DNA from: Hericium rajendrae
Taxonomy: Eukaryota > Basidiomycota > Agaricomycetes > Russulales > Hericiaceae
Reading direction: 5' to 3'
Length of the DNA: 64,000 nucleotides
Assembly (NCBI GenBank): GCA_033439255.1
Contig: CM065878.1
Location: forward strand, 4,836,001-4,900,000
This document shows positions 6,216-49,889 of this stretch, one piece after another. The position numbers and the translations under genes were made by a program. Position 1 is the first letter of the stretch. Each line of letters begins with the position of its first letter. The notes below the pieces were generated by a model, which saw nothing but the letters and a program-made list of their open reading frames with translations, was not told where the DNA came from and did not search any database.

Positions 6216-6510
6216 TGTCGCGTTCACAAAAGGTTTGTAAACTCGATCATGGACTCTCTCTAAAAATCTACCCTGCTCTCGTTTGCACGCTTAATCCAGT
6301 ATCTCATAAAGATGGCTGACTCCTGAATAGCTGAAGGCGGGTTCGGATCGGCATTCATTAGGTCAGCACTAAAAAAGAAAGAAATTAAACATAGACCTCA
6401 ATGTTTTATAATGCTATGACTCACGGAAAGTTGACAAAGTTACGTGTTCCAGCTAGCCTCAACTGGACAATTTGGGTGCCCTAAAAGAGGAGGATTGAAG
6501 GGTAAGCATC

Positions 6511-7881
6511 ATGAATAGAAAATCATCGGAGAAAAATGAGACTTGCATCGCTTTGGATGGCAGTCGACCGAACCTTGCCATGAATTATTTCACCCGTCGA
6601 GTCCCAAAAATAGACCCACTGGCCGTTCTAGCAGGGGACAAGCATGTCAGAAATCTCAGCATATATTCAAGCCAAAAGGATCTGCACTTGAAAATTGAAC
6701 AGAGGATTGGCAACATCCATAGCCCGAGTAGTAGTAAGATGAGAGTCGTCCGGAAGAGATATTGGAACGTGCATGCAGCATTGCATATGCCTCAGCCACC
6801 AATTGAATCGGTCCAGACCGGGCAAAGTAACGGCAATCGAAGCATACGCCACAGTAACAGAAGAAGATCTCGGTTAAGCATACCTTTACGTGTGATGGGG
6901 ATTTCGAGCCAAGAACAGCTAAAGGACTTCCCTGACGAACCGAGACACCAATCTTTCCCTGTAACCACAATGTTCTTTCTCCGTCGTCACCCTCACAGCG
7001 GATCCCCTCAGCCTGAAGATCAGCTCTTAGTTCACGTCGAGCGTCAAACCCACACGACCGTGGAAAACATCTCCCTTCTTGGTCCACGCTTCTCTCTGCA
7101 ATACGATCCGGTAGAAGACCGAATGCATCTTGAAACACCTCCCCCTATATATCAGCCGCCTAATTCACCATTTTCTTGTATCCTACATCCTGATCAGCTC
7201 GTCCGCTTTCTCATTCCAGACTACGTCCTGACAGATCAAATCATGATTCCCACCCAGCCGGGCAAGCCAAGCGCAAGCCTCATACGTAAGGAGTGCCCCT
7301 TGGGTTCATTCTACTCCATCAGCGCTCCTCACGACCTCCCATTCATTTTCGCCTCTGCGGATCTAATCGAAGAAAATGTGAACAATCCATGGGTCTGTGT
7401 CGTCCGTCCAACACGTGACATAGCCGTGGGAGAGAGATTGGTAATAATGAGTGGAGAAGAGGGATATTGTGTATCAGGGATAGTGGAGGAGTTGGTCAGT
7501 GCAGGATCTAGCTGGATGCAGTTCAAGGTCAGACGAGTCCCTGAGATCATCAATACGCACGGGCTTAGGTGGGAAGGAAATCATCTGTTCGTCTTTGTTC
7601 CCCGCATCTGGAGCATCACGCCGTCGTCACTCGCATCATGCCTCATCGCCTGGAAGGGGTATGGGAAGATGGACATACTCGGTCGGTTCAACCCATACGA
7701 TCACATCCACACCTACTTCCCTCCTCATCACAATTCATCGATCCCGCTGCCGCGGACCACCGCGTTCTTCTCCTACGTCAAGAGGATGGAAGGAATCAAA
7801 GCAGCCCAGATCCTGAACCGCGAATCAAGGTACTACGTCAATCTGGAGGGATGGGCAAGGATCCGGGGCAGGCAAGCTTAA
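6511..7881 (+). CDS. LTR-borne (U3) protein of E1, 5' LTR copy
   Basis: Open reading frame of 456 residues lying wholly in U3. The first third is basic and low-complexity (HSNRRRSRLSIPLR). The C-terminal half from about residue 270 looks folded: DLPFIFASADLIEEN, PWVCVVRPT, SGEEGYCVSGIVEELV, FKVRRV, VPRIW, FNPYDH. The stretch around GERLVIMSGEEG resembles a KOW/SH3-like barrel, but that is inference. The same landmarks in the same order occur in the LTRs of E2 (PWISVVKPT, SDIEGSCAYGAIKELL, WRVRRM, VPRHW, LKPYDP). It carries no retroviral enzyme or capsid motif. The copy in the 5' LTR lies upstream of the TATA box, so it would need its own upstream promoter. Confidence 0.75.
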   Translation: MNRKSSEKNETCIALDGSRPNLAMNYFTRRVPKIDPLAVLAGDKHVRNLSIYSSQKDLHLKIEQRIGNIHSPSSSKMRVVRKRYWNVHAALHMPQPPIESVQTGQSNGNRSIRHSNRRRSRLSIPLRVMGISSQEQLKDFPDEPRHQSFPVTTMFFLRRHPHSGSPQPEDQLLVHVERQTHTTVENISLLGPRFSLQYDPVEDRMHLETPPPIYQPPNSPFSCILHPDQLVRFLIPDYVLTDQIMIPTQPGKPSASLIRKECPLGSFYSISAPHDLPFIFASADLIEENVNNPWVCVVRPTRDIAVGERLVIMSGEEGYCVSGIVEELVSAGSSWMQFKVRRVPEIINTHGLRWEGNHLFVFVPRIWSITPSSLASCLIAWKGYGKMDILGRFNPYDHIHTYFPPHHNSSIPLPRTTAFFSYVKRMEGIKAAQILNRESRYYVNLEGWARIRGRQA

Positions 7882-7905
7882 TGGGAAAGATATCCCAGTT
7901 TGGGT

Positions 7906-8163
7906 AAGTGCTTATTCATAAGGGCTTACATTTGCTTATTCATTCAAAGGAGATTTGCTGAGTCGTCCTAGTTCGATTACAGATTTACCTTTTGCTTATT
8001 CATCCTCTTCAAATACGCTGAGTCGTTCAGTTTTTCTGCTGATTCATGCAGTTATTCGCTGAGTCGCCTGGTTGGAGTTTAGTAATATGTTCCTTTTCTT
8101 ACAAACCGAGTTTTTAGTCGATTGGTCATTCACGTACAGCCTCATTTCCTCTAGTATATAAAG
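7906..8163 (+). promoter_or_regulatory. E1 U3 promoter: TGAGTCG/TTATTCAT repeats and TATA box
   Basis: Three TGAGTCG words (7959-7965, 8019-8025, 8060-8066; reverse complement CGACTCA) alternate with three GCTTATTCAT words (near 7908, 7934 and 7994). A TATA box, TATATAAAG, follows at 8155-8163. CGACTCA is one base from the Gcn4/AP-1 bZIP site TGACTCA. The same arrangement repeats in the 3' LTR at +11,597. Confidence 0.6.
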
Positions 8164-8420
8164 AGCCAGAAATAGGGAAGAAAGTTTCCCTTCGAATACA
8201 CGCTATTCACCCTTGCATTAAATAAGTGCAAACAAAGACTGACAGACTGCCAGACTGCCTGTCCTGAACAAATTCAGGAATATATATAGATATATCCGAT
8301 TAAGTGTGCGACGAGCGCAAAATCAGAAAGCTATATCCTCCCATTGAACCACTAGGTGTACTTGGGAAAGACCATAACCCAGCTCATCTAGGCTGATAAC
8401 ACAATTCAGCGCGACATCTT

Positions 8421-8438
8421 TGGAGCCCACCGCGAGGG
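8421..8438 (+). other. E1 primer-binding-like site
   Basis: TGGAGCCCACCGCGAGGG begins 4 nt after the 5' LTR. E2 has the same 18 bases at the same distance (43225-43242). It would pair with a tRNA ending CGGTGGGCTCCA; I cannot say which tRNA. Confidence 0.6.
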
Positions 8439-8769
8439 AGGTTATTTCTGAATTTTGCTCCGCGCCACGATCCGACACCACGGCCTCTCCAATCATCTTC
8501 GAGGGCATCAGGACATCCTCACCCCCGGGACAGTCTGAGTCCGACGAATCCATCTCTGCCCCAAGCACGATTTCGAGCCAAAGAAGTTCTCTGAGAACCC
8601 CAAGTCCCATCGTTTCCAACTCCGAACTGCAGTATCTTATTCCAACGCTGACACTGAACTCCGAACCTGAAATGCCCGTACACCCGACCGAACAGACCTC
8701 CGCTGGAGAGGGACTCTATGGTAGCTATGGCTACAACACTGATGAATACCGATACACCCTAAACACGAC

Positions 8770-11700
8770 TACGATGCCCGCAGCAAGTGGAACGACAACC
8801 ACGCCAATCCTGTCGGTGCTCACTATGCCCCTTCCGGGAACTAAGAATGCCCCTCTTAAGTTCAAAGGCGAATACAATTATGTTGAAAGATTCATAGAAC
8901 ATTTCGAAAAACTTTGTGTTCAGAACAACGTAGTTTCGAACAAGGAACGATGCTCCGCGGTGAAACAATACTGCTTCCCGAAACGTTACGGAAGTAATCG
9001 AAGGACTGTCGAGCTACCGAACACCTGACTGGGAGGGACTAAAGAAAGACCTTCTTACCTATTTCGATGCAGACCTGTACGCTCAGCGATTCAAGAAAAG
9101 GGACCTCATCAACTTCACGAAGAAAACCAAATTAAAACGGATGAATGATTTGAGCTCCTGGAGGAAATATACACGTGGTTTCGTGAAGGTAGCAGGATGG
9201 CTAAGGGACAAGGACAAGATATCCGATGCTGAGGAAGCCATATATTTTTGGGCTGGAATCGGAAGAGGGCTTAGAAGCATTATCGAAGCAAGATACCTGT
9301 CCACTCACCCTACTGCCGACCGCTCGAAGCCGTTTCCCATCACTGACATATCAAGCATCGCCGAAAAGATCCTCCAACGAAATAAGTTCGACGATATATT
9401 GGAGGACGATAGCGACGACTATGGAACTGATTGGTCAGGAGAAGATGAAAGCGAAGAGGAAGACTCCTCAGATGATGACTTACGGTACGATAAGCAAAGA
9501 TGGAAGGCCGGGAGGAAGTCCCATAAGAAACGAATAGCATCTAAAAAGAAGAAGAGAGTTCAGTATGAGGACGACCGAGACGAGGAAAATATAGTCAAAC
9601 CTAGGCGAACGGGCACACCACCGGCACGAGAAACCGATCCAGACGAAGTAGAGGGTTTGGTACGGCAGCTCAGCCTGATGAAACTTAACGATCCAAACTA
9701 CGCGTTGGTCTATTATCGGGCCCTGCGCATGGACGAACGAATCGTTAACGTGGTAGCAGCACCCTTCATTGGACAAGCCGCAGGAGAGGGGAATGATAGG
9801 GAACAAGGTTGGTCAGTACCGCGCGATAACGGATGGAGTCGCGACCCACCTCCTCACATAGGCTCTGCCGTGCCTAAACCCCCGCAAAACACCATGTTTC
9901 CTCCAAACAGGGCGAACAACTTACGATGTTATGGATGCGGAGAAACAGGACATGGTCTTGGAACCTGTCCGAAAGTAAGCGATCAAATCAGTCAAGGACT
10001 CATAGGACGAGACCCATTGCGACGCCTGACCCACGGAAACGGAGCTCCGATTCGCAGACTAGGGAATGAGTCAATACTCGACGCGGCGGCAAGAGAAAGA
10101 GCAGAGGTAAGTAGACCTACCGGCAACGAACAAGGAAGAGTGCACAGCAACCTAGTAATGGTCCATGAAGTAGAAGAATCAGAAGACGACGACGCCGACC
10201 CGGTGTTCTTGGTAGCTAACGACTCGGAGGAGGAATACTACGTGTACCCTGCAGAAAGAAGCCCAAAGACAACCACAACGGCCAGACGTCGTGCGTTCGA
10301 TGGTGTGTATCCTCCAAAACGGTCCGCGACGGGAGCAAGCCACGGGAAAAAGGAGACATCACCATACGTACCCAGGTCGATGCAAACCCCCAGAATCCCC
10401 GGCGAGCGAGTTGGTCATCCTACAACAAAGAAGAAACCTGAGATCAGTCAGAAAGAAGCACCACAAGATAAGGGAATCAAACCCGTGCCGAGCAACACAA
10501 AAAGCAACGACCCAATTCGGGATGAAGTACCCATGGATTGGCGTGCCACGAATGAAGAGGATTCGTCAGAGAATGACGAATCAGATGAAGGCGAACGCAC
10601 CTTGCGTAGGATGCAGACGCGAATGCGCGCCAGCAATGTACAGCCGAGCCAAGAGGAACCGGAACCCACGCCAATTACGGTGCAGCACCCGATTGACACG
10701 AGAAAAGCTTCTTTCGACCCACATGACGATAAACTCGTGATAGAAGACACGACCAGCAGGCCTCGAAAAAGTCAGGCGGCCGGAAAATTTGCTGGAAAGG
10801 AGAATCGGGAGAAAGTGATAGTAAACCGGAAGTCAGCCATATTTGTGGATCCTTCGAAAATCCTCGGACAAATGCTAAAAACTCCTATGCAATTGTCTAT
10901 CGGGGACATCTTGGGGTCTTCTAAGGAGTTACAGAATATCCTTGCAGAAAACATGAAGAAGAAATCAGTAAGCGTGGTAAGGGAATCTCGGGGCGACGTA
11001 CATCATACCACATTCACCGCACCGCGGGGCCCTCTAATTAAAGTTACCTTCCAATACAAGGGTCAGGGGATCACTGCGATAATTGACACGGGATCGCAAC
11101 TGAATATCTTAAATCTGCGAGTATGGAAAGATATCGTGAAGTTACCTATGGACCTAACGAAAAATATCGAAATGCACGATGCGAATGGTGGGGCAGAGAA
11201 ATTAGAAGGTTTGGTCCGAAACGTCCCACTGACGTATGGAGGAGTCGTGACCGAAGCTGACCTATATGTCGGGGAACACGTCCCTTTCGCAATGTTGCTA
11301 GGACGGCCCTGGCAGCGAGGAAATTATGTTAGCATCGACGAACGACCCGATGGAACGTACCTGGTGTTCAAGAACCCCGACCAGCCTGAAACAGCCCTAT
11401 ATGAGGTCTTAGTTGACCAAGAACCGCGCGAATTGGGAGGAGTATTTTTGAGCCAAGCAGATCAAGAGGAAGAGGAAATATTGCGAACATACCTCGTGCT
11501 GGAAAAGGCCTATCGCGACTACAGACCCGAGATGCCAACGCACCAAGAGAAACGTCATTCTGAGGCTAGAATCCACGATGCCCGCTTGGAATCGCGCAGC
11601 GACGCTGTCGAACGTCCTGGAATCCACGATACCGATATCAGTCAGCAAGATAACGAACAAATAAAGAGTGACGCACGCCTTAAGAGTAGCGAACATATAA

Positions 11701-13970
11701 AGGCCAGGGAACGGGACCGGGAAATACAGCGAAATCACCCACTGAGAACGCTACCCGCAATGCAGACCCCGAACGACTTCCCCATTCTTAACGACTTCTC
11801 CGCCCCAATCTACAACCCCATAGTGCCAGGCATACCGCCACCTATGCGCATTCCGTTCAGAGGTACGTACATTCTAGACAACGACGAAGAAAGCCGGCTC
11901 ACCAGTTCGAATCTAGCATGGCCCGAGCTCGATCCTCACGCGATTCGAGGAGCGATCAATCGAGGCATCGATCGCTTCCATGACCTGAACGAGCAGCGCT
12001 GCTTCTTGTCAGTGCAGCTGCTCTCGAACGAGGGTCTAAACCTCGGTACCGGCTGGGACGGTGCCACCCAGTACCGCGATGTCCTGATGCTGAATGCGGA
12101 GTTCAGCTGGCAGGATATGTTCACGCATACGTTAAGAGGGGTTGAGAGAGGTCATGTTCATATGCGAATGTTCAACTTACCTCTCCTTGTGCCGAGGGAC
12201 CCTAACGAAGTGGAGGCGGATCCGGCCTTCCCCCATGGCGCTTTCTCTCCGGGGCCAAGGGCCAGCGCCCCAACTCAGACCGGCCGGCCGGTCCAGGGAT
12301 ACTCGGTCGACCCTGACCTTCCAACTCAGGACCACTCGGCCGGAGAGATGGCCAACTCGGGGGACGTTGGTAGCCAACCCGCTCTCGAAACGGCTCGTTC
12401 GCTTCCCGGTCAGCCTAATTCGGCCGATTTCATCACTCTCGACGGAATTCCTGGCAGGTACGGACTTCGTAGTTCCGTCAGCCTTCCCTCTCTCCTTGCG
12501 CCAAGCCTGACCATGCTCGCCGACGGGCCTCCCCCTCTCGAAGACGACGATGGTCGTCACGTCCGGCTGTTCACTACAAGGAATTCCCAGCGGCGACTCA
12601 CGTCTAGCAGCGCCACCTCCGACTCATCAGACAGCCCCTTCAACCTCGAATATCCCCCTTCCCTATATTCCCTTCCTCCGTCTCCCAACTCGCCTGCTTC
12701 TGAGCACGACTCGATGCCATCTCTCGAGACGGATAGCTCATCTGAGTCGGACTATAGCTCGGATAGTAATAGCGAGTACGAGTCCTTTCCCGGAACCCCG
12801 CCACGGAGAAGGTCATGCGGGACAAAGCCGTTCAAGTCCGCCCGGTCGAAGAAGACCTGGGGATCCCGACGACGGGTGAGAGGTTCTGCTGGGGAAACGA
12901 GCCGCTCGATCCTCGTCTCAGGGCCACCTTTCGGGCGAAGAAACCATCCTATCCGAAGCTCCAACTCCCATCGGGTCCTCGACATAGCTCCCCGGCAGAG
13001 ACGCAGTCGTCCGAGGCACCGGCAACTCAGATCATTGGCGCTGACACGAACGACGTCGAAATGCTCAATCCAAGTGAGTCAAAGCCGACTAGTTCGCCCT
13101 CGGAGTCCAGTTCCGTTAACAGCCCTCTTTCGGACTTAGACCCAGTCTATCCAGGACAGGACGACATCGCAACCATGGTCGCGGCCCTGCGCGCCGTCCA
13201 GCCGCCTATCCACCACCCCCTGAAATCCCAAGCGCCACCTCCCGCGGTACTCCCGATCCAGCCAAAGAAGCCCCTATCTAGAGTAGATGCGCTTGTGCTG
13301 GCACACGGCCATAACCTCGCGGACGAGATTCCGAGATCGACTGACTACGTCAGCACGGAGACGCAGGATGAGTGCGAGCCGCATGTTCTGACCATCCGAG
13401 CCATGGAGTACCCGCGTGATTTTGTCCTACCACGGATCTACGAGAACAAACTTCAAGGCTCCCAGGAATTCCTTATCCCGGGAAGGCGCAGCCTCGCCGA
13501 GGACCCTTTCGATGACAAGGCCGTTCCAATGTACATGTTCTGGCGTCAGGTCTTTCAGACCCTCCTCATGGTCATCAAAGACAACATCGGGGGCTCACGT
13601 CGGCATCGTGATGAGAGCGTCAAGGAACTCGAGGAAATCTTCGGGGAAGCGGCCGTCGAATTCATACAGGACTTCTCGATCGACGAGGCTCACCTGCCCC
13701 CAAGCGCCCTGCTTAGGCCCTCCGAAGCCGGGTTTCTCCAGTCAGCCGCGGAGTTCTTTCAGATTCAGGGGCGCCGCAAATACGCCATCGCATCTCGTCG
13801 TTTGCTCACTATGCATTTCGCCGATGACTACCTCATCTCACGCACCGTCGCTACGGGACTACTTGACGGGCTTCAACATCCGGGCCTCATCGTGTTACAC
13901 GACCGAGAATTCAACGAGTGGCGAGGAATGGTTGACGGATATATCGTCGACGAGAAGATTTATCTCTAAG
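8770..13970 (+). pseudogene. E1 gag-protease region (fossil)
   Basis: Capsid-like N-terminal part (PLPGTKNAPLKFKGEYNYV and YTRGFVKVAGWL), a CCHC zinc knuckle CYGCGETGHGLGTC near 9925, and a retropepsin core IDTGSQLN near 11085 with LLGRPWQRGN after it. A long disordered, Ser/Pro/acid-rich stretch and a conserved C-terminal helical domain ending near HFADDYLI and HDREFNEW follow. Not whole: a few breaks compared with E2. In E2 the same region is one 2,065-codon frame. Confidence 0.8.
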
Positions 13971-14008
13971 GTTCGTTTTCCTCGAAATTCGGTTCAGGTT
14001 CTGTCTAA

Positions 14009-14021
14009 ATTCCCTGCGGAT
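14009..14021 (+). promoter_or_regulatory. E1 internal copy of the pre-3'-LTR motif
   Basis: ATTCCCTGCGGAT, 40 bp after the gag stop, is the same 13-base word found at 17801-17813 at the edge of the 3' LTR. E2 has its own version, AAGTTCCCCGCGG, at the matching gag-pol position. Confidence 0.6.
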
Positions 14022-14561
14022 AGGAACGGCGACCTGCGAACTAGCCTTGGGGCTGCATGTCCGGGGCGCTTCAATGACTCTGCTAACACGAAATGCGATC
14101 GAGCGGCACGGCGAGCGCTCGATCGAGACGGTGCGACGATTTTCTGCCCTATCTCTATAATGTTCTACCCTTCATTCACGGAATCCACGCCCGCGTATCT
14201 TCTTAGTTCAACTACGCGGCCTGCTATCACATTTTTGACTCTAGGCACCCATCTTCGTTCTCAGCCCCCACTCTTTCGTTCCCCGGCTTCCTCGCCCCCT
14301 CCATCGTACGAGACCGTATCCGGTATATTGACTTGTCCTACGTACACTTCGAGTTTCATAAGTACGGACGGGCCGGACACAGGATCCGAGCCTAAGTCCC
14401 ATTCCATACAATTGCATAAATTTGTTGAAGAAGAGAATATCGAATGTTTCCCTTCATACGAGTCAGTCCGAAACGCGAAAGCTCGGTGTTTCTTCATTAA
14501 AGAGTATCAAGAAAGGGTATCACGAGACCTTGCACCTTTTGACCCAACACGATACTTTGCG

Positions 14562-17500
14562 ATGACTGCGTACAAACGAGTCGATAAGAAAATCAAGCCC
14601 GTGGCAGGAACATTTCCGGAATCCGCACGTGTTCATCGGCGATTTCCAACGAATCCCCTTCGAAATCTCCCAGCACTGTCGAAGACACCTCCCGAGTTCG
14701 TGCCTAATGGGCGAATTACAGCGGAACGGCTCAAGCTACTCGATATTAACGCAGACGGATTCCTGTGGCCTGAAGAAGAAAAGCTGTTTGCGCACATTAT
14801 GGTTCTAAACCAGGATTCGTTGGCCTTTGAGGAAACACAGCGCGGTACGTTGAAAGAATCATATTTTACCCCTTATATTATTCCGACAGTACCGCACATC
14901 CCATGGACCTACAAGAACATTCCCATACCACCGGGAATCAAGGACAAGGTCCTTGAACTCCTTAAAGAGAAAATAGCGGCAGGTGTGTACGAACCTTCCC
15001 AGTCAGCCTACAGATCGAGGTGGTTTTGCGTACTCAAGAAAAATGGTAAGTTACGTATCGTCCACGACCTACAGCCATTAAATAAAGTCACGATCCGAGA
15101 TGCAGGAGTACCTCCGATACTAGACAATTTCGTTGAGCCTTTCGCGGGCCGAGCATGCAGCACGGTATTTGACCTTTTTGGGGATTCGACGCACGAAAAG
15201 TAGACCCCGGAAGCCGGGACTTCACTGCATTTTTAACTCCCTTGGGATTGTTGCGTATCACGTCGATGCCAATGGGCTTTACAAACTCACCAGCCGAATT
15301 TCAGAACTGTATGACGTTCATACTCCAGGACGAGATCCCTGAACATGCCAACATCTTCATAGATGACCTGGCAGTCCGAGGGCCCAAGACTCAATATCTG
15401 GATACTGCGGGCCGGCCGGAAGTCCTGAAAGAGAACCCAGGTATTCGCAGATTTATTTGGGAACATGCTGTTGACGTACACAGGATCATGCATCGAATTA
15501 AGGAGGCAGGTGCGACATTCGCTCCAAACAAAGTACAGCTCTGCAAACCTGACGTTGTAATACTGGGACAGACATGCACGCCTAGCGGGAGAATACCAGA
15601 AGACAAGAAAGTCGATAAAATTCGTGGGTGGCTGCCTCTAAAGAATCCAAAAGATGTTCGAGGATTCCTGGGGCTCTGTGGGACGGTGCGCATATGGATT
15701 CCCGGATATTCTGCGATCATTAGGCCTCTGACGGAATTAACCCGAAAGGAAGCCGAGTTCATATGGGATGAACGACGGGCAAGGGCATTCGAACACCTAA
15801 AACATCTCGTCTCCAGTGCACCTGCTCTACGATCCATCGACTACACCTCATCCAACCCAGTAATTCTGTCGGTTGATTCAAGTTACATTGCGGTAGGATT
15901 TATCCTGTCCCAACTAGATGATGAAGGAAGACGGCGGCCTGCCCGATACGGGTCGCTCCCAATGTCCGAAGTTGAGTCACGCTACTCTCAGCCCAAACTA
16001 GAACTGTTCGGACTGTATCGGGCACTGAAGCACTATAGCCTGTATATCATCGGGGTTAAGAACTTCTACGTCGAGGTCGATGCCAAGTATATCAAAGGTA
16101 TGCTAAATTCTCCTGATCTGCAACCAAATGCAGCCATTAATCGCTGGATCCAAGGGATTTTGATGTTTGATTTCACGCTTGTCCATGTCTCAGCAGAAAA
16201 ATTTCGAGGTCCAGATGCACTTTCCCGTCGGAGTCCTGGAAATGGAGAAGAACCTGAGTTCGATGAAGATTCATGGTTAGATAATATAGCATTATATGCA
16301 ACAGCAGAAACATCTATGGATCTCAGAAAGGGTAAGAATGTGCAAATCTCCTTAAGGTACTCTCCGAATGAGCTCCCATCTTCATTCCCTATCACAAGCC
16401 GACTGGACGACAGTCTAAGTGATATCTTCCGGTTTCTCACCACGCTGCGATATCCTGACCATGTTGAGACCACCCAGGATGACGCAAGATTCATTCAGAA
16501 AGCCTCCAAATACTTCGTCAAAGAGGGGATAATGTTCAAACGAAATGGAACACGTCCTCCGACCAAAGTCATCTTCAAAAAGACTGATCGGATTGAGCTA
16601 ATGACTAAAGCACATGAAGGGCTAGGGCATCGAGGAGAGCAAGCTGTTTTCGAAACACTTCGTCTACGATTCTTTTGGCCACATATGCGAATCGATGTCC
16701 ACCATCACGTTCAGTCATGTCATGAGTGTCAGCTCCGAAGTCTAAAAAGGATGCAGATTCCGCTAACTGTGTCAACTCCTTCAGCATTGTGGGTAAAGGT
16801 ATATATAGATCTAATGAACATGCCTAAAACCTCCGAACGAAATGGATTCACTTATATTGTGGCAGCCCGAGATGATCTTTCACGTGCATCGGAAGGAAGG
16901 GCCCTCAGGAACAAAAGCTCAGCAGGGATTGCAAAGTTCCTCTGGGAACAGATATACTGTCGCTATGGTGCAATAGGACAAATTGTGACCGACAACGGAT
17001 CAGAGTTTCAACTCGCCTTTCATGAACTGACAGAGAAGTGGGGAATACCACACGTCACAATCTCACCATACAACTCTAAGGCTAATGGTGTAGTCGAGCG
17101 GGGACATTATATAATTCGGGAAGCTATAGTCAAATCCTGTGAAGGAAAGATAAATCTGTGGCCAAGCAAAGTAGCTCACGCCTTCTTCGCAGATCGAATA
17201 ACAGTAAGCCAAGTCACCGGATTCTCGCCTTATTATTTGCTCCATGGCACGCATCCAGTCCTTCCCTTTGATCTCACCGAAGCCTCCTTCCTCGTTGAAG
17301 GATTCAAAGCAGGAATGAAGCCTGAAGATCTTCTGGCATTAAGAATTCGACAGTTAGAAAAAAGACCTCTGGATATAGCAGCGGCTGCACTCTGTCTGAA
17401 GAAATGCCGATTTCGGTCAAAAGAAAAATTTGAGAGGAAGTTTGCCAAGAAGCTCCAACGTGATCATTATCAGCCAGGAGAATTAGTCTTAATTCGCAAC

Positions 17501-17755
17501 TCAGCAGTAGAACAAAGCAAGAACAAAAAGGCTAAACCTCGATATCTTGGTCCATTCATAGTTGACCGACGAACTCAAGGAGGATCTTACGTTCTGAAGG
17601 AAGTAACGGGGATAGTCAAACGAGATGCGGTTGCAGCATTTCGACTTCTGCCTTACATATCCCGTGAAGGGACAAAACTCAGACAACTTGCCAAAGAGTT
17701 AGCTAACCGAGAAGATGGAGACTCTGATACTGAAGACAGTTCAGGAGAAGACTGA
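14562..17755 (+). pseudogene. E1 pol region: RT, RNase H, integrase (fossil)
   Basis: Begins with YKRVDKKIKPVAGTFPESARV. The reverse transcriptase has the catalytic word NIFIDDLAV. RNase H has LSVDSSYIAVGF and the tail HVSAEKFRGPDALSRR. The integrase has HEGLGHRGEQ with CHEC, IVTDNGSEF and NGVVERGH (D-D-E). A C-terminal SH3-like part (KPRYLGPFIVDRR) is followed by an acidic end, with no chromodomain. Close to E2 pol throughout. Not whole. Confidence 0.85.
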
Positions 17756-17776
17756 ATACAAAATTCAAGAAGGTAG

Positions 17777-17812
17777 GCAACCAGAGACGGTTGCAATCTA
17801 ATTCCCTGCGGA
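17777..17812 (+). other. E1 hairpin plus motif abutting the 3' LTR
   Basis: A short hairpin (GCAACC, loop AGAGAC, GGTTGC; 17777-17794) is followed by ATTCCCTGCGGA (17801-17812), directly against the LTR. This occupies the place of the polypurine tract but is not purine-rich. E2 has a hairpin and a matching motif at the same place. Confidence 0.5.
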
Positions 17813-20013
17813 TGTCGCGTTCACAAAAGGTTTGTAAACTCGATCATGGACTCTCTCTAAAAATCTACCCTGCTCTCGTTTGCACGCTTAATCCAGTATC
17901 TCATAAAGATGGCTGACTCCTGAATAGCTGAAGGCGGGTTCGGATCGGCATTCATTAGGTCAGCACTAAAAAAGAAAGAAATTAAACATAGACCTCAATG
18001 TTTTATAATGCTATGACTCACGGAAAGTTGACAAAGTTACGTGTTCCAGCTAGCCTCAACTGGACAATTTGGGTGCCCTAAAAGAGGAGGATTGAAGGGT
18101 AAGCATCATGAATAGAAAATCATCGGAGAAAAATGAGACTTGCATCGCTTTGGATGGCAGTCGACCGAACCTTGCCATGAATTATTTCACCCGTCGAGTC
18201 CCAAAAATAGACCCACTGGCCGTTCTAGCAGGGGACAAGCATGTCAGAAATCTCAGCATATATTCAAGCCAAAAGGATCTGCACTTGAAAATTGAACAGA
18301 GGATTGGCAACATCCATAGCCCGAGTAGTAGTAAGATGAGAGTCGTCCGGAAGAGATATTGGAACGTGCATGCAGCATTGCATATGCCTCAGCCACCAAT
18401 TGAATCGGTCCAGACCGGGCAAAGTAACGGCAATCGAAGCATACGCCACAGTAACAGAAGAAGATCTCGGTTAAGCATACCTTTACGTGTGATGGGGATT
18501 TCGAGCCAAGAACAGCTAAAGGACTTCCCTGACGAACCGAGACACCAATCTTTCCCTGTAACCACAATGTTCTTTCTCCGTCGTCACCCTCACAGCGGAT
18601 CCCCTCAGCCTGAAGATCAGCTCTTAGTTCACGTCGAGCGTCAAACCCACACGACCGTGGAAAACATCTCCCTTCTTGGTCCACGCTTCTCTCTGCAATA
18701 CGATCCGGTAGAAGACCGAATGCATCTTGAAACACCTCCCCCTATATATCAGCCGCCTAATTCACCATTTTCTTGTATCCTACATCCTGATCAGCTCGTC
18801 CGCTTTCTCATTCCAGACTACGTCCTGACAGATCAAATCATGATTCCCACCCAGCCGGGCAAGCCAAGCGCAAGCCTCATACGTAAGGAGTGCCCCTTGG
18901 GTTCATTCTACTCCATCAGCGCTCCTCACGACCTCCCATTCATTTTCGCCTCTGCGGATCTAATCGAAGAAAATGTGAACAATCCATGGGTCTGTGTCGT
19001 CCGTCCAACACGTGACATAGCCGTGGGAGAGAGATTGGTAATAATGAGTGGAGAAGAGGGATATTGTGTATCAGGGATAGTGGAGGAGTTGGTCAGTGCA
19101 GGATCTAGCTGGATGCAGTTCAAGGTCAGACGAGTCCCTGAGATCATCAATACGCACGGGCTTAGGTGGGAAGGAAATCATCTGTTCGTCTTTGTTCCCC
19201 GCATCTGGAGCATCACGCCGTCGTCACTCGCATCATGCCTCATCGCCTGGAAGGGGTATGGGAAGATGGACATACTCGGTCGGTTCAACCCATACGATCA
19301 CATCCACACCTACTTCCCTCCTCATCACAATTCATCGATCCCGCTGCCGCGGACCACCGCGTTCTTCTCCTACGTCAAGAGGATGGAAGGAATCAAAGCA
19401 GCCCAGATCCTGAACCGCGAATCAAGGTACTACGTCAATCTGGAGGGATGGGCAAGGATCCGGGGCAGGCAAGCTTAATGGGAAAGATATCCCAGTTTGG
19501 GTAAGTGCTTATTCATAAGGGCTTACATTTGCTTATTCATTCAAAGGAGATTTGCTGAGTCGTCCTAGTTCGATTACAGATTTACCTTTTGCTTATTCAT
19601 CCTCTTCAAATACGCTGAGTCGTTCAGTTTTTCTGCTGATTCATGCAGTTATTCGCTGAGTCGCCTGGTTGGAGTTTAGTAATATGTTCCTTTTCTTACA
19701 AACCGAGTTTTTAGTCGATTGGTCATTCACGTACAGCCTCATTTCCTCTAGTATATAAAGAGCCAGAAATAGGGAAGAAAGTTTCCCTTCGAATACACGC
19801 TATTCACCCTTGCATTAAATAAGTGCAAACAAAGACTGACAGACTGCCAGACTGCCTGTCCTGAACAAATTCAGGAATATATATAGATATATCCGATTAA
19901 GTGTGCGACGAGCGCAAAATCAGAAAGCTATATCCTCCCATTGAACCACTAGGTGTACTTGGGAAAGACCATAACCCAGCTCATCTAGGCTGATAACACA
20001 ATTCAGCGCGACA
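17813..20013 (+). repeat. E1 3' LTR
   Basis: 2201 bp, every landmark offset from the 5' LTR by exactly 11,597 bp, with no indels or substitutions noticed on reading. It is followed by CCGC, the duplicated target, and then by the Spt5-like host exon. Confidence 0.93.
18108..19478 (+). CDS. LTR-borne (U3) protein of E1, 3' LTR copy
   Basis: Identical 456-codon frame to that at 6511-7881. In a transcript starting at the 5' LTR TATA box this copy lies after pol and before the R region of the 3' LTR. It would therefore be the last gene on the genomic RNA, the position held by env in retroviruses and by the LTR-encoded superantigen of mouse mammary tumour virus. No signal peptide or membrane segment suggests an envelope. 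Function unknown. Confidence 0.75.
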   Translation: MNRKSSEKNETCIALDGSRPNLAMNYFTRRVPKIDPLAVLAGDKHVRNLSIYSSQKDLHLKIEQRIGNIHSPSSSKMRVVRKRYWNVHAALHMPQPPIESVQTGQSNGNRSIRHSNRRRSRLSIPLRVMGISSQEQLKDFPDEPRHQSFPVTTMFFLRRHPHSGSPQPEDQLLVHVERQTHTTVENISLLGPRFSLQYDPVEDRMHLETPPPIYQPPNSPFSCILHPDQLVRFLIPDYVLTDQIMIPTQPGKPSASLIRKECPLGSFYSISAPHDLPFIFASADLIEENVNNPWVCVVRPTRDIAVGERLVIMSGEEGYCVSGIVEELVSAGSSWMQFKVRRVPEIINTHGLRWEGNHLFVFVPRIWSITPSSLASCLIAWKGYGKMDILGRFNPYDHIHTYFPPHHNSSIPLPRTTAFFSYVKRMEGIKAAQILNRESRYYVNLEGWARIRGRQA

Positions 20014-22591
20014 CCGCACGTGGTTCAAGAAATCGTATGGGGACAGATTTCTTCTGAGGAATTTTGCTATTGATACGTGCCATTGAGACGAGAATTTCAG
20101 TGCGGTCGTATACCGTCGTCTGATCCTTGGCTGGTAAGGCTGTGGCGACAAAATCTTCATACTGTCCGCCCTCAAAGCCATTAGGACCCTTGGTACCTTT
20201 GATTTTGAAGACGGCCTTCCTGTTGAACAGGTCGCTTGTAAGGGGCATGTCACGTACATACGCTGCGAACAAAATTTAGCAATGGCGGAGTGTATAAAGC
20301 GATGGACTACCTTGAAGTACGGATTCCTCGCCTAAGTCAAGTGCTTAGACACGGTGGAAGGACAGATAACAATCAAGTGATATACATACCAGTTAAGTTT
20401 GAGGGATCCCATACACCCGCGGAGACTGCCGAATCCTGAGGCGGGGGAGTCGAAGGCCTAGCTACCTCATCCAAGTGGCTTTCTAGAGCTTGCAAATGCT
20501 CGGCTCTAAAATGACAGATGAGCACCTACAACGCATTCTAGTATCGATGACTCACGAGAATGAAATATGATCGCGAGGTAATGTATGGTTCCGATGACTT
20601 GAGGTCATTTTCGCCTCTAGCTCGACGATAAAATCCTGTTGCGTAACTGCCTTAACCAGGGCTCTGTACCCTTTGAAATTGCCCTTAATGACTACAGCAG
20701 GTTTGCCAACTAATTCAGAATCGAGATGTCCTCCATAGAAGCGTGATGTGCTAGCTACTTCGTCGTGGCGACGCAGGTCCCCCCGCTTAACTTGAACCTG
20801 AAAATGATATTAGCAAACACATTTGGCACTGAGCTAGAGACATGCCTGTTTACCGTCGGCATCAAGCTTTAAAACATATATTGTTGTGCCCGCTACTCCA
20901 ATTGCTGGCCCCTCGGCCTCTAGCTGTGTCTGCCCATCTCCTCCAGCCTGCCCATTCATGTTGGATCCGGCCGTAAAGATGCGAACAACTGTGCCAAATG
21001 CTCCATGACACGACACATGATTCCCGACCGAGATATTTGAGAGGTTGAAGAGAAGTGTTGGCTCAAAAAATACGAGGCGGTCGATCGCCGCTTTAACCTG
21101 TTTGATTCTACCTTAGATTGCTTCACGTCTGAGTAGATCGGCATACGCCTACCTCATGATGCGTTAGGCGATCGAGGAAGATCAGAAAATCTCCTTCAAT
21201 CGTGACGACTAGCCCATCCTCATGTCCGCCTTCAATTTTTACACTATCTCCAGGACGGAACGACCTTCGAAGGGAGGCAATTGGCACCTGGATAGACAAC
21301 GGGAGTGAAGCATCTTTAGTCTCAACTGTTGCAATGCCGTGCTCAATATCGATGATGTTCCCCATTAGTCCGGTCTGATCGCCTGAGATAATGGCCACTC
21401 TGTCTCCCGCACACAGCGAGTCTTGCGACCTCTTGAGAAGGGCTTGTAGATGGAATGATGCATCAATGTTCAGCTCTCGCACTGCTAAGAAGGTGCCTAT
21501 TGCCTCAGCATGCTCCAAGCTGTCGACTAATTTGACCGCGACGATGTCAAATTTCTTGAGTATGATACCATGAACGTATGTTTCGTTTCGGAATTGAAAC
21601 TTCTCTGCACTTCCCTTGATTTGAGACCCACATTCGTCCAAGGCCAATTGGAATGGCCAGATGCGGGCTTCAGGGCGTGACGACCGCTTCCGTTTCTTGG
21701 TCTCCGGATACGTTTGCAAGTCGGCTTCAGATTTATTCTTCCGCTGGATCCGAGGCACCAGTGCCAATGTCAGAGCAGATGCATCGGTATCCTTCACATA
21801 CCCGACATCTCCCTTATACAGGCCGCATAGCACGCGCACCCACTGCCCCGCCTGAATTGGTTTGTCTGCCCTGCAAGCAAAAAGCGCTGCCCGCTCTCCG
21901 ACAGGAATGAGAACGGGTGGCTTCTTGTGTCAGACGGTAACGAACTTGTCAAGAACGGACAGTACGTCCGGTCGGCTGCGTGCTTCGACAAATATCACGC
22001 CTGGGATCTGTGGACACTCGAATGCAGAAAAAACACCAGGATGGCTTTTGCTCATGACTCGGTTGAAAACTTGCTTGACGACGTCAATCTCCGTTCCGCG
22101 CTTGTAAATAGTTTGGTAAGGGAACTGGTCATCTTCTGAATGCTCCCACACACCTTCACGTTGACAAGAAAGATACCCGGATCGCGATCAGATGGATTCC
22201 GTACTAGGAACGATTCCTCCACATCGAACCGCTGCAAATTCTGGTTGTCTGCGGCTGCTCGTTCGCGATATGCGCGAGCTTTGTGCGATAATATTTTGGA
22301 TTCATCGTCGTCCTCGCAGATAAGGCTCCTGACCCTTGGAGGCAACATTGTGATATCCTCATTGTCATCAAAGAAACCTGCGACGATGGTAAGCATGTGA
22401 TATTCAAGACGATGCACATATGCACACATACCGCTCGTATCCTTCTCCTCCTCCTCTTCACTGGTCTCACTGTCATCGATTGTTGCCTCGATGTCCAAAA
22501 AGTCTTCAACCTGTTCGCCATCAGATGAGGTAGCTTTATCGTCACTTAATGTCAGAAAGCCCACCGTAGATCTCCTCTTTTTGCTTGACAT
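20014..22591 (-). pseudogene. Spt5-like NGN/KOW transcription-factor gene, split by a retroelement
   Basis: A nuclear protein of the Spt5/NusG type, which in related factors rides on RNA polymerase II. Exons on the minus strand are 22591-22432, 22377-22154, 22100-21153, 21097-20846, 20797-20556, 20505-20390, 20331-20311 and 20262-20014, with the end at 6215-6054. Summed with the duplication counted once, the coding length is 2370 nt, a multiple of three. The N-terminus is acidic (DFLDIEATIDDSETSEEEE). An NGN-like domain (RGTEIDVVKQVFNRV to about PGVIFVEAR) is followed by KOW-like segments (VRVLCGLYKGDVGYV, GDRVAIISGDQTGLMGNI, PAVVIKGNFKGYRALV). An in-frame TGA at 21932-21930 is a nonsense codon unless a 75-bp intron (21945-21871) removes it. 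The intron at 20845-20798 uses a GC donor. Basidiomycetes often have several Spt5-like paralogues, so this need not be the essential copy. Confidence 0.75.
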
Positions 22592-33738: not shown

Positions 33739-34091
33739 TCGCTGTTTACCGTGGCACTATTATCATAGTTTACCATAGTGATATTTGGGCCTGGATATAG
33801 GATATAGTACACTGCATAACACGGCGCTATCCGATACAACCAAGTGGAAGGAGGGAAGGAAGTTTCATTCTGTAGCGGTCCTAATGACACTTGAGGAACA
33901 ACGCTGTCGCGCTTGCAACATGTTTTGAGCGCTAACATGAAGAAAAGGGCGGCGCATCACTCATTTCGCTTATAAGATGAGAAGAAGCAACGTCATATAA
34001 GAATTTGCCAACCTGCATCAAAAGCATCCCACAAACACGCTGCACTCTCTCTAAAAGCCCCCATTCACGCTCCCTCTTGACTCCGCCCTTC

Positions 34092-35360
34092 ATGCTCCAA
34101 CGCATCATGGCCTGGTTCGATTCTCTTCTTAATCCTGCTCCCGAACTTCGCCGGCCTGCTCCCACCGAGAATCTCCCTCCTCTCTTCCTAGCAGTCCATC
34201 ACGATTCCCTGCGAAGCGTCACTACCGAGAGACTCAATTTTTACCTCGGAGGGAATCTCATCACTGCCAACCCCAGATACCGTCTAACGGTTCTCGACGG
34301 GCCAGAGCCACCTGACCCTCGACGAATTCTTGAAGGTATGCAGGACATCGCCGACCAGATATCCATCGCTGCACGTCGTCAGGAGCAGGAGATCGAGACC
34401 GAACTCATCTTCAATGACCGTTCTTTTGTAACGTTGACTGATACGGATGTAGGGGACCTCCGACTGGAGGTAGAAAGGCACGAGAATGACGACATCCCCA
34501 ACATCATGGCCGCTGCATTCCCTGCCACGCTCTCTGCTGCCCAATTCCCTCCTTCCATTCTGGCTGCTCCGAGCGCTCCCGCATTAGTTCCACCCCGCCT
34601 ACGCCAACACTTCCTGAGATCAGTGCCGACCCGACATTCCGTGCCCCGGTATCATCACCGTTATTCCCGAAGGGCCCTTCGGCCACATCTATGCTCGACA
34701 GTTCCATCAGTGCACCGGCTACGTCTGGGCCCCCTCCTCTGTTGATCTCCCTTTTAACTTCATGACCGTCCGGCTCATCACTGGAAACCTGCACTTCCCC
34801 TGGATCTCAGTCGTTAAGCCGACGATGCCCATTCGCAAAGGCCAGTTCATCTTGTTGATCTCGGACATCGAAGGATCCTGCGCCTATGGCGCTATCAAGG
34901 AACTCCTCTCGGTGACGGATACCTGGGCCGTTTGGAGAGTAAGACGTATGAAGGTTGTGGACGATCTCGGGCCTGATTGGGGGGAGGAGCCGGCCAGCCC
35001 TGATCCCGATTCCACTTATGGATCTGGGTGCATCATCATGGTCGTGCCACGTCATTGGTGCATCGGAGAAGGAAGAGAGAGGCAGAGGCTTACCAGAGAT
35101 GGGGCAGAGGCAAAGGATCGGCTCAAGCCTTACGATCCACTGGATCTTTTCCACTGCGTATACGAGGCCTCCACATATGCGACATCCTACAGCGGCCACT
35201 GCGAGCCTGCAGTCTTTGATCACATGCGCAAGGCCTGCCAGATCAAGAAGATCGCCATCGAGGCTGGAACCGCGAGGATGGATGTCGATGTAAAGGAGTG
35301 GGTTCGGAACGAGCCTCCTCAGGCCGAGTTTCATCCGACCATAGGAGACCCTTACGCCTA
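34092..35360 (+). pseudogene. LTR-borne (U3) gene of E2, 5' LTR copy (fossil)
   Basis: Coding-like region related to the 456-residue LTR protein of E1. It shares PWISVVKPT, SDIEGSCAYGAIKELL, WRVRRM, VPRHW and LKPYDP in the same order, preceded by a Pro-rich linker. Not cleanly open in this copy. Function unknown; a KOW/SH3-like module in the middle is inferred. Confidence 0.6.
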
Positions 35361-35465
35361 AAAGGGACTGGTCATGTTCTTTGTCGTATGTTTCCTGCAC
35401 TTTGTCTTCGTCATGATGCTACATCACCTATGTTCTCTCATTTTCCTCTTGATTTGTTTGGTCTC

Positions 35466-35670
35466 TGACTCATACGTCTGAGCGTTGACTCATTATGACT
35501 CTTACCTTCGTTTGACTCTTCCTGACTCACTATCCTGACCGACTCATCTCCTAGTCACCTACTTCGACTCACCCTTACTATACATGACTAGGAATGACTC
35601 ACTCGTTTCATCTATCCTTTTTGATACATTTCTTACCCGCGCAGCCATAGGAGCTCTTAGGGTATATAAA
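35466..35670 (+). promoter_or_regulatory. E2 U3 enhancer of TGACTCA repeats plus TATA box
   Basis: Within 136 bp (35466-35601) there are four TGACTCA, two CGACTCA and two TGACTCT words, then TATATAAA at 35663-35670. TGACTCA is the consensus site of Gcn4/AP-1 bZIP factors. The 3' LTR repeats the cluster at 55213-55348 with TATA at 55410-55417. Confidence 0.65.
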
Positions 35671-35925
35671 GGCTGTTCCTGTAACACCAAATTCAAGTAT
35701 CTTTGCCCCCAGTTTGTACGTCAGAATCCTCTAAGGTTCTTTTCTACAATCAAATCCTGGTCAAGTTGCTTCACAAGCACTTTCAATCCACGTTATTCTA
35801 CGAATTCACGTTGACGTCCAATCCACGAAGATACAAATCCAAGCAGTTATCATTCCACGTATACGCACGTCCAGTCCGATCATCAATATTCACGTCCTAC
35901 GAGTCATCGTACTTTTGATCATTGT

Positions 35926-36348
35926 TGTCAAGACTTGGTCGTAGACAGCAGAGAACCACCCAAGTCACCAGCGATGATGGGAGCGAGAGAGCAGAGAGCG
36001 ACTAGCAGCGCAGTGACCTGTATTGGAGGTACAGTACGGTACAGACGAAATGGACAATCTAGGGAAATAGGCGAGCGACAGGGAGCCTATAAGTACTGGG
36101 ACGACAATGGAAAAAGAACAATGGACACCATAACGGGTCGAACAATAGAGTGAGAACAATGGTGGCCAAAAGGAGAACAATGGGAGGGAGAACAATAGGA
36201 TGTCCCAAAGGGGAACAAGGGCATGGGTGAAGGATAGCCCCAGGTCATGTGAGGAAGTGAACATGTGATGGGGCTGCTGGAACACATGACCGACGCGATG
36301 CCTTGATGGCAGAGAAGAAGGCGGAGAGAAATGGAGCGATCCGTGACA
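35926..36348 (-). repeat. E3 3' LTR
   Basis: 423 bp, in element sense TGTCACGG to CTTGACA. Same length as its partner and identical as far as I could read. In element sense its start is preceded by the purine-rich tract AGAGAGGGGGTGA. Confidence 0.9.
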
Positions 36349-36359
36349 TCACCCCCTCT

Positions 36360-39300
36360 CTAAGACGCACTTTCGCCTGGAGTGCGTGATGAGCATGGAC
36401 GGGGTCGAGGTAGATGAGTCCACGAAGATTGGGAGCCTTGAGTGCATGCGGATGGCGGGTGTAGAAGTCGGTGATTGCACCATGGGCATTGGAAAGGGAG
36501 GTACGTGAAAGCCACTGATTTTCCGAATCAGGGTAGCCTGCCCATTTGACGAGATATTCAATGCCGCGTTTGTTCCGGGTGAGACGAGCATCGAGGACAG
36601 ACTCAACTTCGTACTCTTCCTCGCCCTCCACAAGGTCAGGTGGTGGTGCTGGGAAGTTGGGACCATGAGCGTCGGTTTCCTTGTAAGGGGACAACAGGGA
36701 CGTGTGGAACACCGGGTGGATACGCCAGGTGGGCGGTAACTTCAGTCGATAAGAGACTGGGCCCAGGACGTCAGTGATTTCGAAAGGTCCCAGGCGTCGA
36801 TCAGCAAGCTTAGCTTTGGGTCGCGTGGTTTTGATGTTTTTGCCATCGAGCCAGACCTTGTCACCAACCTGGAAGTGGATGGTGTCGTGCATATGGTCCT
36901 GGTTGTTGCGCTTCATGAGATCAGCAGCTGTTTGAAGGCTGGCCTGGACCTCAGTGCGAAGTTGTTCGAGGTGACGGAAACGATCCTCAACGGCGGGTGT
37001 AGATGATGTGGGGTTGACAGTGGGGATGGCAGTGGGAATATAGCCGAGGAGCATTTCAAATGGAGCTCGGTTAGTGGCGCTGTGGATACGGTGGTTGTGC
37101 GAGAACTCAGCATAAGGGAGCCATTGGACCCAATCATCCTGACGGTAGTTGCAGAAGGTACGAAGGAACTGCTCGAGTTCTTGATTGACGCGTTCTGACT
37201 CGCCGTCGGTCTGTGGATGATAGGCGGTGCTGAGGGAGGACTTGATACCAAGTTTGTCAAAGACGCCACGCATGACTTTGCCTGCATACTGTGGGCCACG
37301 ATCAGAGATGAGGCGTTCCCAGAGGCCGTAGTTCCGATAAATCCTGTCAAAAAGGATGTCGACTGTGCCATCACTGGTAATGGTCTCTTTACAAGGAGTG
37401 AAGGAGACGTGCTTTGTAAAACGGTCAACGACCACATTGATGGAGTCATAGCCTTGGCATTCTGGGAGTTTGACGATGAAGTCCGAGGTAATGTCTTGGA
37501 AGGGACGGGTAGGGATGGCATTGGGAATGGTTTCAACATGAGAGCGGTGATTTTGAACCTTGGTGGCCTGGCAGGTAGCACAGCCATCAACATAATCACG
37601 AACAAAGACAGACATACCGGGCCACCAGTAGTTGCGACTGAGGAGCTCATAGGTCTTGTAGCGTCCTGGGTGACCAGCCATGGGGGTGTCATGATGCAGC
37701 TTGACGATGTCCCGACGAAGGTCCTTGTCAGCAGGGATGTAGACTTTGCCACGAAAGAGGATGAGGCCATCCTCGTAGTTCCATTCTTGGAGGTTCTTGA
37801 CGAGGGAGCGAGGACCATTGTTCAGGATCACATCAAGGGCTTGAACAACCTCAATGTCCTTGGTCTTGGCATTGCGAATGCGTTGGCGAAGATCAGCATT
37901 GCCAATGGACTTGACAGCAGCTGGACGTGTAGCACAGATCTGGAAGTACTTGGGGTCGAGGAGGACACGATCGGAGTTGTCGTCGTCCACCCCCTCTCTA
38001 TGGTCAGGTCGTCTCGACATGGCATCTGGCCGGTGATGAATACCGGGTTTGTGGATCAGGGTGAAGTCGAAACGAGTGAGGAAGAGAGCCCAGCGAGCTT
38101 GACGACGACTCAGCTTTTGGGCAGACTTGAAGTATTCCAGGTTCTTATGGTCGGTCCAGATCTCCACAGTATGGGGAGAACCTTCCAGGTAGTGGCGCCA
38201 GGCTTCGAGGGCGCGGATGATGGCCAGGAGTTCCTTGTCATAGATGTCATAGTTGCGTTCGGGGGCGGTAAAGGCCTTGGAGATGTAAGCAACAGGGTGC
38301 CATTGCTCATCCTCCCCACGCTGGGATAGGATACCTCCTGTAGCATAGTCTGAGGCATCGACCTCAACCAGGTAGGGTTTGGACGGGTCAGGCATGATAA
38401 GGACTGGGGACGAGGTGAACGCAGCTTTAAGAGCCTCAAAGGCATGTTGACATTCAGCAGACCAGGCCCAAGGATGGTCTTTCTTGGTAAGGTCAAACAT
38501 GGGACGAGCGACTTTGGAGAAGTCCTGGATAAAGCGTCGATAGAAGTTGCCAAAGCCAACAAAGGACTGGACGTCCTTGACGTTACGAGGGGCAGGCCAT
38601 TCAGCAATGCCTGCAACCTTGACGGGGTCCATGGCGAGCGTGTTATGGGAGACGATGAGACCAAGGAACTCAACTGAGGGCTGCTCGAACGAGCACTTCT
38701 CTGGTTTAAGGAAGAGGTCATTGTCCTGGAGGCGTTGGAGGACCTTGCGCACAAGGTCGCGATGTTCTTCGAGGGTTTCGGTGAAAATGAGGATATCGTC
38801 CATGTAGATGACGACTTTGCCCGTATCGATGAGATCCTTGAAAAGTTCATTCATCATTCCTTGGAACGTGGCAGGGGAGTTGGTAAGACCAAAAAACATC
38901 ACCAGGGGTTCAAAGAGACCGCGGTTGGTTTTGAAGGCGGCTTTCCATTCATCGCCCTCCTTGATGCGAACGTTGTTGTAACCCCAACGAACGTCCATCT
39001 TGGAGAAGACTCTGGCACCCTTGAGCTTGTCAACGAGTTCAGAGATGAGGGGCAGGGGATATTCATTCTTGATGGTGCCTTTGTTGAGGGTGCGATAGTC
39101 CTGGACGGGGCGTAGTTTTCCATCTTTTTTCTTGATAAAGAAGAAGGGACTCGCCATAGGGGATTTGGAAGGACGGATGTAGCCTTTCTTGACCTGGTCA
39201 TCAAGGAATGAATCGAGGTCCTCCTGCTCAGTAGGAGCCATGGGATAGACCTTGCATGAACGGGGTTCAAAACCATCTTTCAGGTCAATGGCGTGATCCC

Positions 39301-43011: not shown

Positions 43012-43016
43012 ATTGT

Positions 43017-49849: not shown

Positions 49850-49889
49850 GGTGCGCGCCCGAAATCTCTTCGAGCCGGACTCAATATTT

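Follow-up and report, generated by a model that had tools for sequence, protein, structure and literature searches.

The window analyzed here is a 64,000-bp stretch of the genome of the basidiomycete Hericium rajendrae (contig CM065878.1, hereafter C1, positions 4836001-4900000; C2, C3, C14, and the like are further contigs of the same genome, which has 46.8 Mb in 19 contigs). It holds two Gypsy (Ty3-type) retrotransposons, E1 and E2, which together with E3 represent three families, and the long terminal repeats (LTRs) of both carry a protein-coding gene. In E1 and E2 this gene lies wholly within U3, ahead of TATATAAAG, which is taken as the TATA box for the genomic RNA, and in E3 the same holds as far as the LTR sequence reaches. 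That U3 contains a conserved coding gene is close to certain.

The E1 LTR was aligned with nine LTR pieces of its relatives. The core of the gene (LTR positions 755-1663, 909 bp, the last 303 codons) has no indels between E1 and the copies on C14, C2 (3' LTR), C3, and C4, which are about 80-82% identical; outside the core, the aligned stretches contain 36, 37, 18, and 15 indels, respectively. If indels were evenly spread, such an absence would have P = 4e-9 (C14), 3e-6 (C3), and 2e-7 (C4). The copy on C6 also lacks core indels in its aligned pieces, and the one at C1:112600 has two core insertions of 3 and 6 bp, both in frame. Core differences concentrate at third codon positions, with counts by position of 26/11/84 (E1-C14), 24/12/89 (E1-C3), and 28/15/73 (E1-C4). 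The ratio of nonsynonymous to synonymous substitution rates (dN/dS) is 0.097-0.162 in all six pairs of E1, C14, C3, and C4 (0.10-0.14 in those with E1), and the wrong frames of E1-C14 and E1-C3 give 1.24, 1.62, 4.15, and 3.79, the confidence interval (CI) of 1.24 including 1. The integrase piece of E1-C14 has a dN/dS of 0.023. These substitution patterns indicate that the LTR gene is under purifying selection.

The open reading frame (ORF) of E1 extends over 456 codons, and its first 153 codons behave differently. Relative to C14 they contain 15 indels, none of them a multiple of 3, and relatives have stops there, which rules out the whole 456 codons as coding. Because codons 1-153 lack support, the likely start of the gene is 6970 (in the 3' LTR, 18567), giving it 303 codons; the context of this ATG is alike in E3 and in a single-copy relative. 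The LTR then extends over 187 bp (E2), 249 bp (E3), or 754 bp (E1) before the start codon, and from the stop codon to TATATAAAG there are about 270-300 bp in E1 and E2 and 814 bp in E3. One could suppose that so long a frame arose by chance in a young pair of LTRs, whose identity makes one accident appear twice, and codons 1-153 do look accidental. For the gene as a whole this is scarcely credible, as the core is conserved, has low dN/dS between subfamilies, and has homologs in three families. By these comparisons, core conservation and dN/dS rule out chance as an explanation of the core, and the chance reading stands for codons 1-153.

An alignment of the E1 protein with that of E2 has E = 1e-15 and 25% identity, and a copy on C5 is intermediate between them. 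Five ordered landmarks (PWxxVVxPT, an EGxC..G..EL block, VRR, VPRxW, and PYD) are found in both. Protein searches of the genome gave 59 (E1), 57 (E2), 96 (E3), and 60 (single-copy relative L064) stretches, these being overlapping sets and lower bounds. Among 18 full-length LTRs of the E2 family, the 423-residue frame is unbroken in 13, interrupted by a stop in three, and frame-shifted in two. Comparison of the E2 gene with a relative on C7 shows two indels (15 bp and 1 bp) in the 1269-bp frame and 15 outside it, with dN/dS of 0.12 for the 294 C-terminal codons and 0.20 for the 133 N-terminal ones. Among the 15 pairs of six intact E2 copies, dN/dS is 0.09-0.40 in 14. One of these intact copies, C10:1197271, is a solo LTR with GCGC on both sides, inserted in an E3 gene, and none of the other full-length E2-family LTRs lies on C10. 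Copies of the E3 gene stand in pairs on one strand, 13-17 kb from each other and with pol in between (for example C2:4693048/4707027 and C8:549143/562953); the E3 LTR starts with TGTCGCG and has TATATAAAG behind the gene, and its right end was not reached. A 72-bp difference between the E3 copies L066 and L069 is an in-frame deletion, which dismisses both an intron and a spliced retrocopy.

E1 and E2 copies are nested in E3 genes or LTRs at C10:1195455-1200102 (L045) and C1:5176801-5194238 (L002, L004). Gene-bearing LTRs are thus themselves targets of related elements.

The initial annotation of this DNA had described a 456-codon gene in each E1 LTR and a related coding region with the five landmarks in those of E2. 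The frame is indeed open in both E1 LTRs, and its last 303 codons hold up while codons 1-153 do not; the E2 homology is borne out by the landmarks and the alignment. Its span, 6511-19478, covers E1 only, not E2. It had named two results that would speak against a gene, namely no homologous frame in other LTRs and a neutral pattern of change; homologous frames are present in other copies and in a third family, and the pattern between subfamilies is strongly non-neutral.

The gene is associated with one lineage of pol. A search with E1 pol gave 57 hits in the genome (best 54 of 451 candidates scored); these are hits rather than elements, and a few elements give two. They were compared with 92 gene places, from the E1, E2, E3, and L064 searches with short second fragments left out. 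A gene on the same strand within 4 kb downstream accompanies 29 of the 31 pol hits at ≥59% identity versus 1 of the 26 at ≤48%. The LTR gene therefore marks one pol clade, in agreement with the earlier proposal of an accessory protein of a fungal Gypsy lineage. The two clade hits without the gene are C3:2401982 and C10:1171733. The lone exception outside the clade is C10:1157640, where an E3-type gene at a distance of 1.5 kb possibly belongs to another element. Next to the pol hit at C10:1195455, the closest gene copy is that of the nested E2 solo LTR, which has half of an E3 gene on either side.

The one sister family that was checked has an LTR of about 173 bp. At its left end only about 220 bp are common to 22 other copies (best 40 of 263 candidates), and a 181-bp query recurred at a spacing of about 11.13 kb in at least eight pairs, of which six enclose a sister pol hit (best 40 of 178). 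As the sister LTR is short, the long gene-bearing LTR looks derived. The possibility that the sister clade has the same gene outside the LTR was rejected, as antisense frames occupy the 2.5 kb covered of its 3' region instead. In the sister family (L043 4112-6000, + strand) about 4.5 kb separate the end of pol from the 3' LTR, and the 2.5 kb covered contain antisense frames of 185, 128, and 258 codons; a Pfam scan of those of 185 and 258 codons gave no match. One sister element, L070 1-989, stands at the end of a multicopy host sequence found at 17 other places with 74-86% identity, which may point to a site preference.

Trees of integrase (302 columns, 8 sequences) and of the C-terminal part of the gene (13 sequences) agree on three groups: E1, E2 with C5, and E3. 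Between E1 and E2, identity is 71% in integrase versus 25% in the C-terminal part of the gene, and between E1 and E3 it is 63-65% versus 16-18%. Judged from these sequences, the gene diverges between families much faster than integrase. Synonymous difference between E1 and C14 reaches 0.81 in gag and 0.94 where the integrase piece begins, against 0.36 where that piece ends and 0.39 in the gene (first 240 integrase codons versus the rest plus the gene, P = 2e-16). E1 and C14 have likely exchanged the 3' end of pol together with the LTR, by template switching, in which case the LTR may be a module that passes from one element to another; synonymous-site constraint in the LTR is the alternative.

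The gene tree also bears on whether the gene was captured from the host, its single-copy relatives being host originals and the selection partly reflecting host use. Three E3-related frames, of 281 (C5:355k), 294 (C3:145k), and 226 codons (C2:4449k), have no high-identity copy elsewhere and no pol hits nearby, and no TGTCGC start precedes the first two, as one would expect of host genes. However, two single copies join the E3 side of the tree (support 100 for the group, 65-70 inside it), a placement that fits equally the take-up of a retroelement gene by the host or old lone LTRs, and protein searches gave no homolog outside this genome. Host capture is accordingly a doubtful account, though one that deserves consideration.

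The protein itself resembles little else. A Pfam scan at E ≤ 1 matched no family with the E1 protein, and with 12 members it gave four weak, scattered matches, the best at 0.016 and none to KOW. Homology to SPT5 KOW1, considered because of a weak resemblance of a VPRIW stretch to IPRID, was rejected (profile P = 0.21, probability 0.3%). The best sequence match in PDB has E = 1.5, and Foldseek with models of the protein found nothing at E ≤ 0.001. Among 5.8 billion proteins there is no match for the E1 protein (E ≤ 10) nor for the 12-member alignment (E ≤ 1). By comparison, pol has 1383 relatives at E ≤ 1e-10 in the same set, so that related elements are present there; given its fast divergence, the lack of matches to the gene protein does not show that the gene is absent from those elements. 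The sole named pol relative among 120 matches listed is a Phanerochaete sordida polyprotein with 59% identity to E1 pol, and matches of pol to viral contigs gave none that was confirmed.

The features of the two elements in the window are given in Table 1. The E1 LTRs have the termini TGTCGCG...CGCGACA, and CCGC flanks the element on both sides. In the pol of both E1 and E2, Pfam places reverse transcriptase/RNase H before integrase, with a protease match under the Pfam cut-off in the preceding frame. The pol of E1 is in two frames (13416-15203 and 15242-17755) where relatives have a single open frame of 1236-1468 codons for the same part, and the E1 copy of the window may be broken there. The presumed primer-binding site has a 15-base core that occurs 79 times in the genome versus none for the reversed control; no tRNA was matched to it. 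Scans of the window for tRNA and Rfam families gave no match. No purine-rich tract was found before the 3' LTR, where a TTCCC(C/T)GCGGA-like sequence stands in E1 and in the E2 copies L041, L044, L047, L049, L051, L053, and L055 (TTCCCTGCGGA in E1 and its counterpart TTCCCCGCGGA at E2). The plus-strand primer, or priming itself, may be unusual. Target duplications, read from the flanks of E1, E2, L041-L049, L051-L052, and L055-L056, are 4 bp long; eight of nine testable cases are exact and one has a single mismatch. All have a central CG on at least one side (CCGC, ACGC, GCGG, GCGC, GCGT, GCGA, ACGT).

Table 1. Positions of the E1 and E2 elements and their parts in the window
Feature	Positions	Strand	Remarks
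E1 5' LTR	6216-8416	+	2201 bp; 0 differences from 17813-20013
456-codon ORF, E1 LTR copies	6511-7881 and 18108-19478	+	From the ORF list
E1 153-codon open extension	6511-6969	+	Probably untranslated leader or promoter rather than coding
E1 LTR gene, supported coding part, 5' copy	6970-7881	+	303 codons plus stop
TATATAAAG, presumed TATA box of genomic RNA, E1 5' LTR	8155-8163	+	3' of gene
Presumed primer-binding site, TGGAGCCCACCGCGAGG	8421-8437	+	Conserved; after E1 5' LTR
E1 gag-pol frames	9141-13139, 13416-15203, 15242-17755	+	Pfam protease, reverse transcriptase, RNase H, integrase
TTCCCTGCGGA	17802-17812	+	Directly 5' of E1 3' LTR; no purine tract
E1 3' LTR	17813-20013	+	2201 bp
E1 LTR gene, supported coding part, 3' copy	18567-19478	+	Identical to 6970-7881
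TATATAAAG, E1 3' LTR	19752-19760	+	3' of gene
E2 5' LTR, left part	33905-35925	+	ACGC flanks both ends of E2
E2 LTR gene, 5' copy	34092-35361	+	Frame-broken
TATATAAAG, E2 5' LTR	35663-35671	+	
Nested chromodomain Gypsy element	35926-43011	-	423-bp LTRs, ATTGT duplication; in E2 5' LTR
E2 5' LTR, right part	43012-43220	+	Split off by nested element
E2 gag-pol frames	43652-49849, 49707-53606	+	ORFs, Pfam
E2 3' LTR	53651-55876	+	2226 bp
E2 LTR gene, 3' copy	53838-55108	+	Frame-broken, at another place than the 5' copy
TATATAAAG, E2 3' LTR	55410-55418	+	

Two other features of the window lie outside these elements. To the right of E1, a 238-residue frame at 21126-21839 (- strand) matches SPT5 KOW2 over the Pfam cut-off (E = 1.2e-8). 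Two pairs of inverted copies, 25235-26712/60606-62087 and 24882-25488/30250-30858, are 98.7% and 97.4% identical.

How the gene is expressed and what it does we infer as follows. The end of pol lies 45-57 bp from the LTR, and this gap, added to the 187-754 bp of LTR before the gene, makes translation from the genomic RNA unlikely, so that a short mRNA would be needed. By the anatomy of the element, a genomic RNA that starts at the TATA motif carries the gene nowhere but in its 3' U3. A promoter near the LTR start, at work in solo LTRs as well as in both LTRs of an element, would yield a short mRNA ending at the poly(A) site of the LTR itself, and each LTR, solo ones included, would then be a self-contained gene cassette. 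Each cycle would copy one U3 to both ends, and the gene copies would begin identical, as those of E1 are. We put the chance that the gene has its own promoter in the LTR at about even, and we would place the same even wager on this promoter and a conserved U3 gene taken jointly. Acting in trans, the protein would serve its own family, most likely by regulating element expression or by shielding the element against host silencing. Such a trans-acting, family-specific role is suggested by the much faster divergence of the gene than of integrase between families, and we hold it tentatively, as slightly short of an even bet. A functional analogy, and no more, is the bel1/tas gene of foamy viruses, which lies in or near U3, is accompanied by a second promoter, and encodes a family-specific trans-activator.

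Expression could also come from the 3' LTR only, through a spliced genomic RNA or from a promoter where pol ends, in the manner of the sag gene of mouse mammary tumor virus (MMTV), the 5' copy being silent. The initial annotation had noted that, with the TATA box after the gene, a genomic RNA would carry it only from the 3' LTR, after pol. The position of the motif is right (8155 and 19752), and MMTV makes a sag mRNA that is spliced once and has a promoter immediately 5' of the 3' LTR (PMC12789967). Yet the arrangement does not force expression from the 3' LTR only, as the 187-754 bp of LTR before the gene may hold a promoter, and with 187 bp (E2) or 249 bp (E3) before the start codon this promoter would be equally close in either LTR. 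Intact frames in solo LTRs also speak for an LTR promoter, though they would be expected anyway of a young solo LTR. Expression from the 3' LTR only is thus an unlikely, if serious, alternative.

Several observations weigh against a selected gene with its own promoter. A relative on C8 (68% identical) has four one-base indels in the core, even if its differences keep the codon bias (59/40/135), and seven stops across the whole 456-codon match; in a sister E1 element, 20 bp are inserted into the core of one LTR. On C14 and C2, the 5' LTR copies have broken frames as well. Such broken genes of E1 type are single copies and can decay after insertion, and the differing breaks of the two E2 copies in the window fit the same course. 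Within E2, one of the 15 pairs has a dN/dS of 1.43 (CI 0.60-6.2; 4 synonymous and 19 nonsynonymous changes). An in-frame TGA is common to both LTRs of the C5 element, which has transposed with a broken gene; hence the gene is not needed in cis in every cycle, which fits a trans-acting product. Stretches that are rich in CT or resemble TATA precede the E2 gene but are no more than suggestive of a promoter, and the E1-C14 mosaic suggests that inheritance of the gene is not strictly tied to that of pol. Finally, two AlphaFold2 models made from window sequences alone are poor, with mean predicted local distance difference test scores (pLDDT) of 32.4 and 35.9; both have five strands at core residues 142-211, a region that could be a small barrel.

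A protein acting in trans might also restrain its own family. The p22 protein of Ty1 is a self-inhibitor, and by analogy solo and full LTRs could keep making an inhibitor that limits copy number. Every insertion would add to the gene dose, solo LTRs would preserve it, and the divergence between families is as expected; still, we consider this quite improbable. A broader possibility is that each LTR works as a gene cassette in its own right, one promoter serving a trans-acting, family-specific protein and the other the genomic RNA. As U3 is copied to both LTRs and the gene is kept in solo LTRs, the protein would outlive the element and provide a dosage-dependent memory of the family that helps or restrains later copies, with the single-copy relatives being host genes derived from it. 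This seems rather unlikely, a shade more so than host capture or expression from the 3' LTR only; if true, the LTR would have grown more than 10-fold by uptake of the gene, from a length like that of the sister family.

Genes in comparable positions are known from retroviruses. The U3 of MMTV holds the whole sag frame and that of human immunodeficiency virus 1 (HIV-1) part of nef (PMC12789967), and in these, as here, the genomic RNA has a U3 protein gene after pol. The likeness to sag, whose product is a type II membrane protein, is one of position only: here the host element is a fungal retrotransposon without recognized env, and the gene lies between the LTR start and the TATA box in three families. 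The position of the MMTV sag type is found in E1 and E2 and, as far as the LTR sequence reaches, in E3, the protein product being predicted from sequence. Extra frames between pol and the 3' LTR (aORFs) have been described in the plant elements Grande, RIRE2, and Retand and in the fungal element Boty (brtn) (PMC7264820). Like the LTR gene, they are conserved additional genes with no known function, located toward the 3' end of an element, but they lie in the internal region, whereas here the gene is inside both LTRs and in sense orientation. The antisense frames before the 3' LTR of the sister family resemble these aORFs (PMC7264820). In searches of 5.39 million open-licence papers, outside of which most subscription journals lie, no retrotransposon, fungal or other, was found whose LTRs enclose a whole conserved gene, in line with the earlier suggestion that the gene may be undescribed.

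If the gene is expressed, the LTR of these elements would serve both as a switch and as a gene, and solo LTRs would not be inert. Annotation pipelines that mask LTRs would then hide a fast-evolving protein family. With close gene-bearing and gene-less (short-LTR) elements in one fungus, H. rajendrae would offer a tractable test of accessory genes in a retrotransposon that lacks env.

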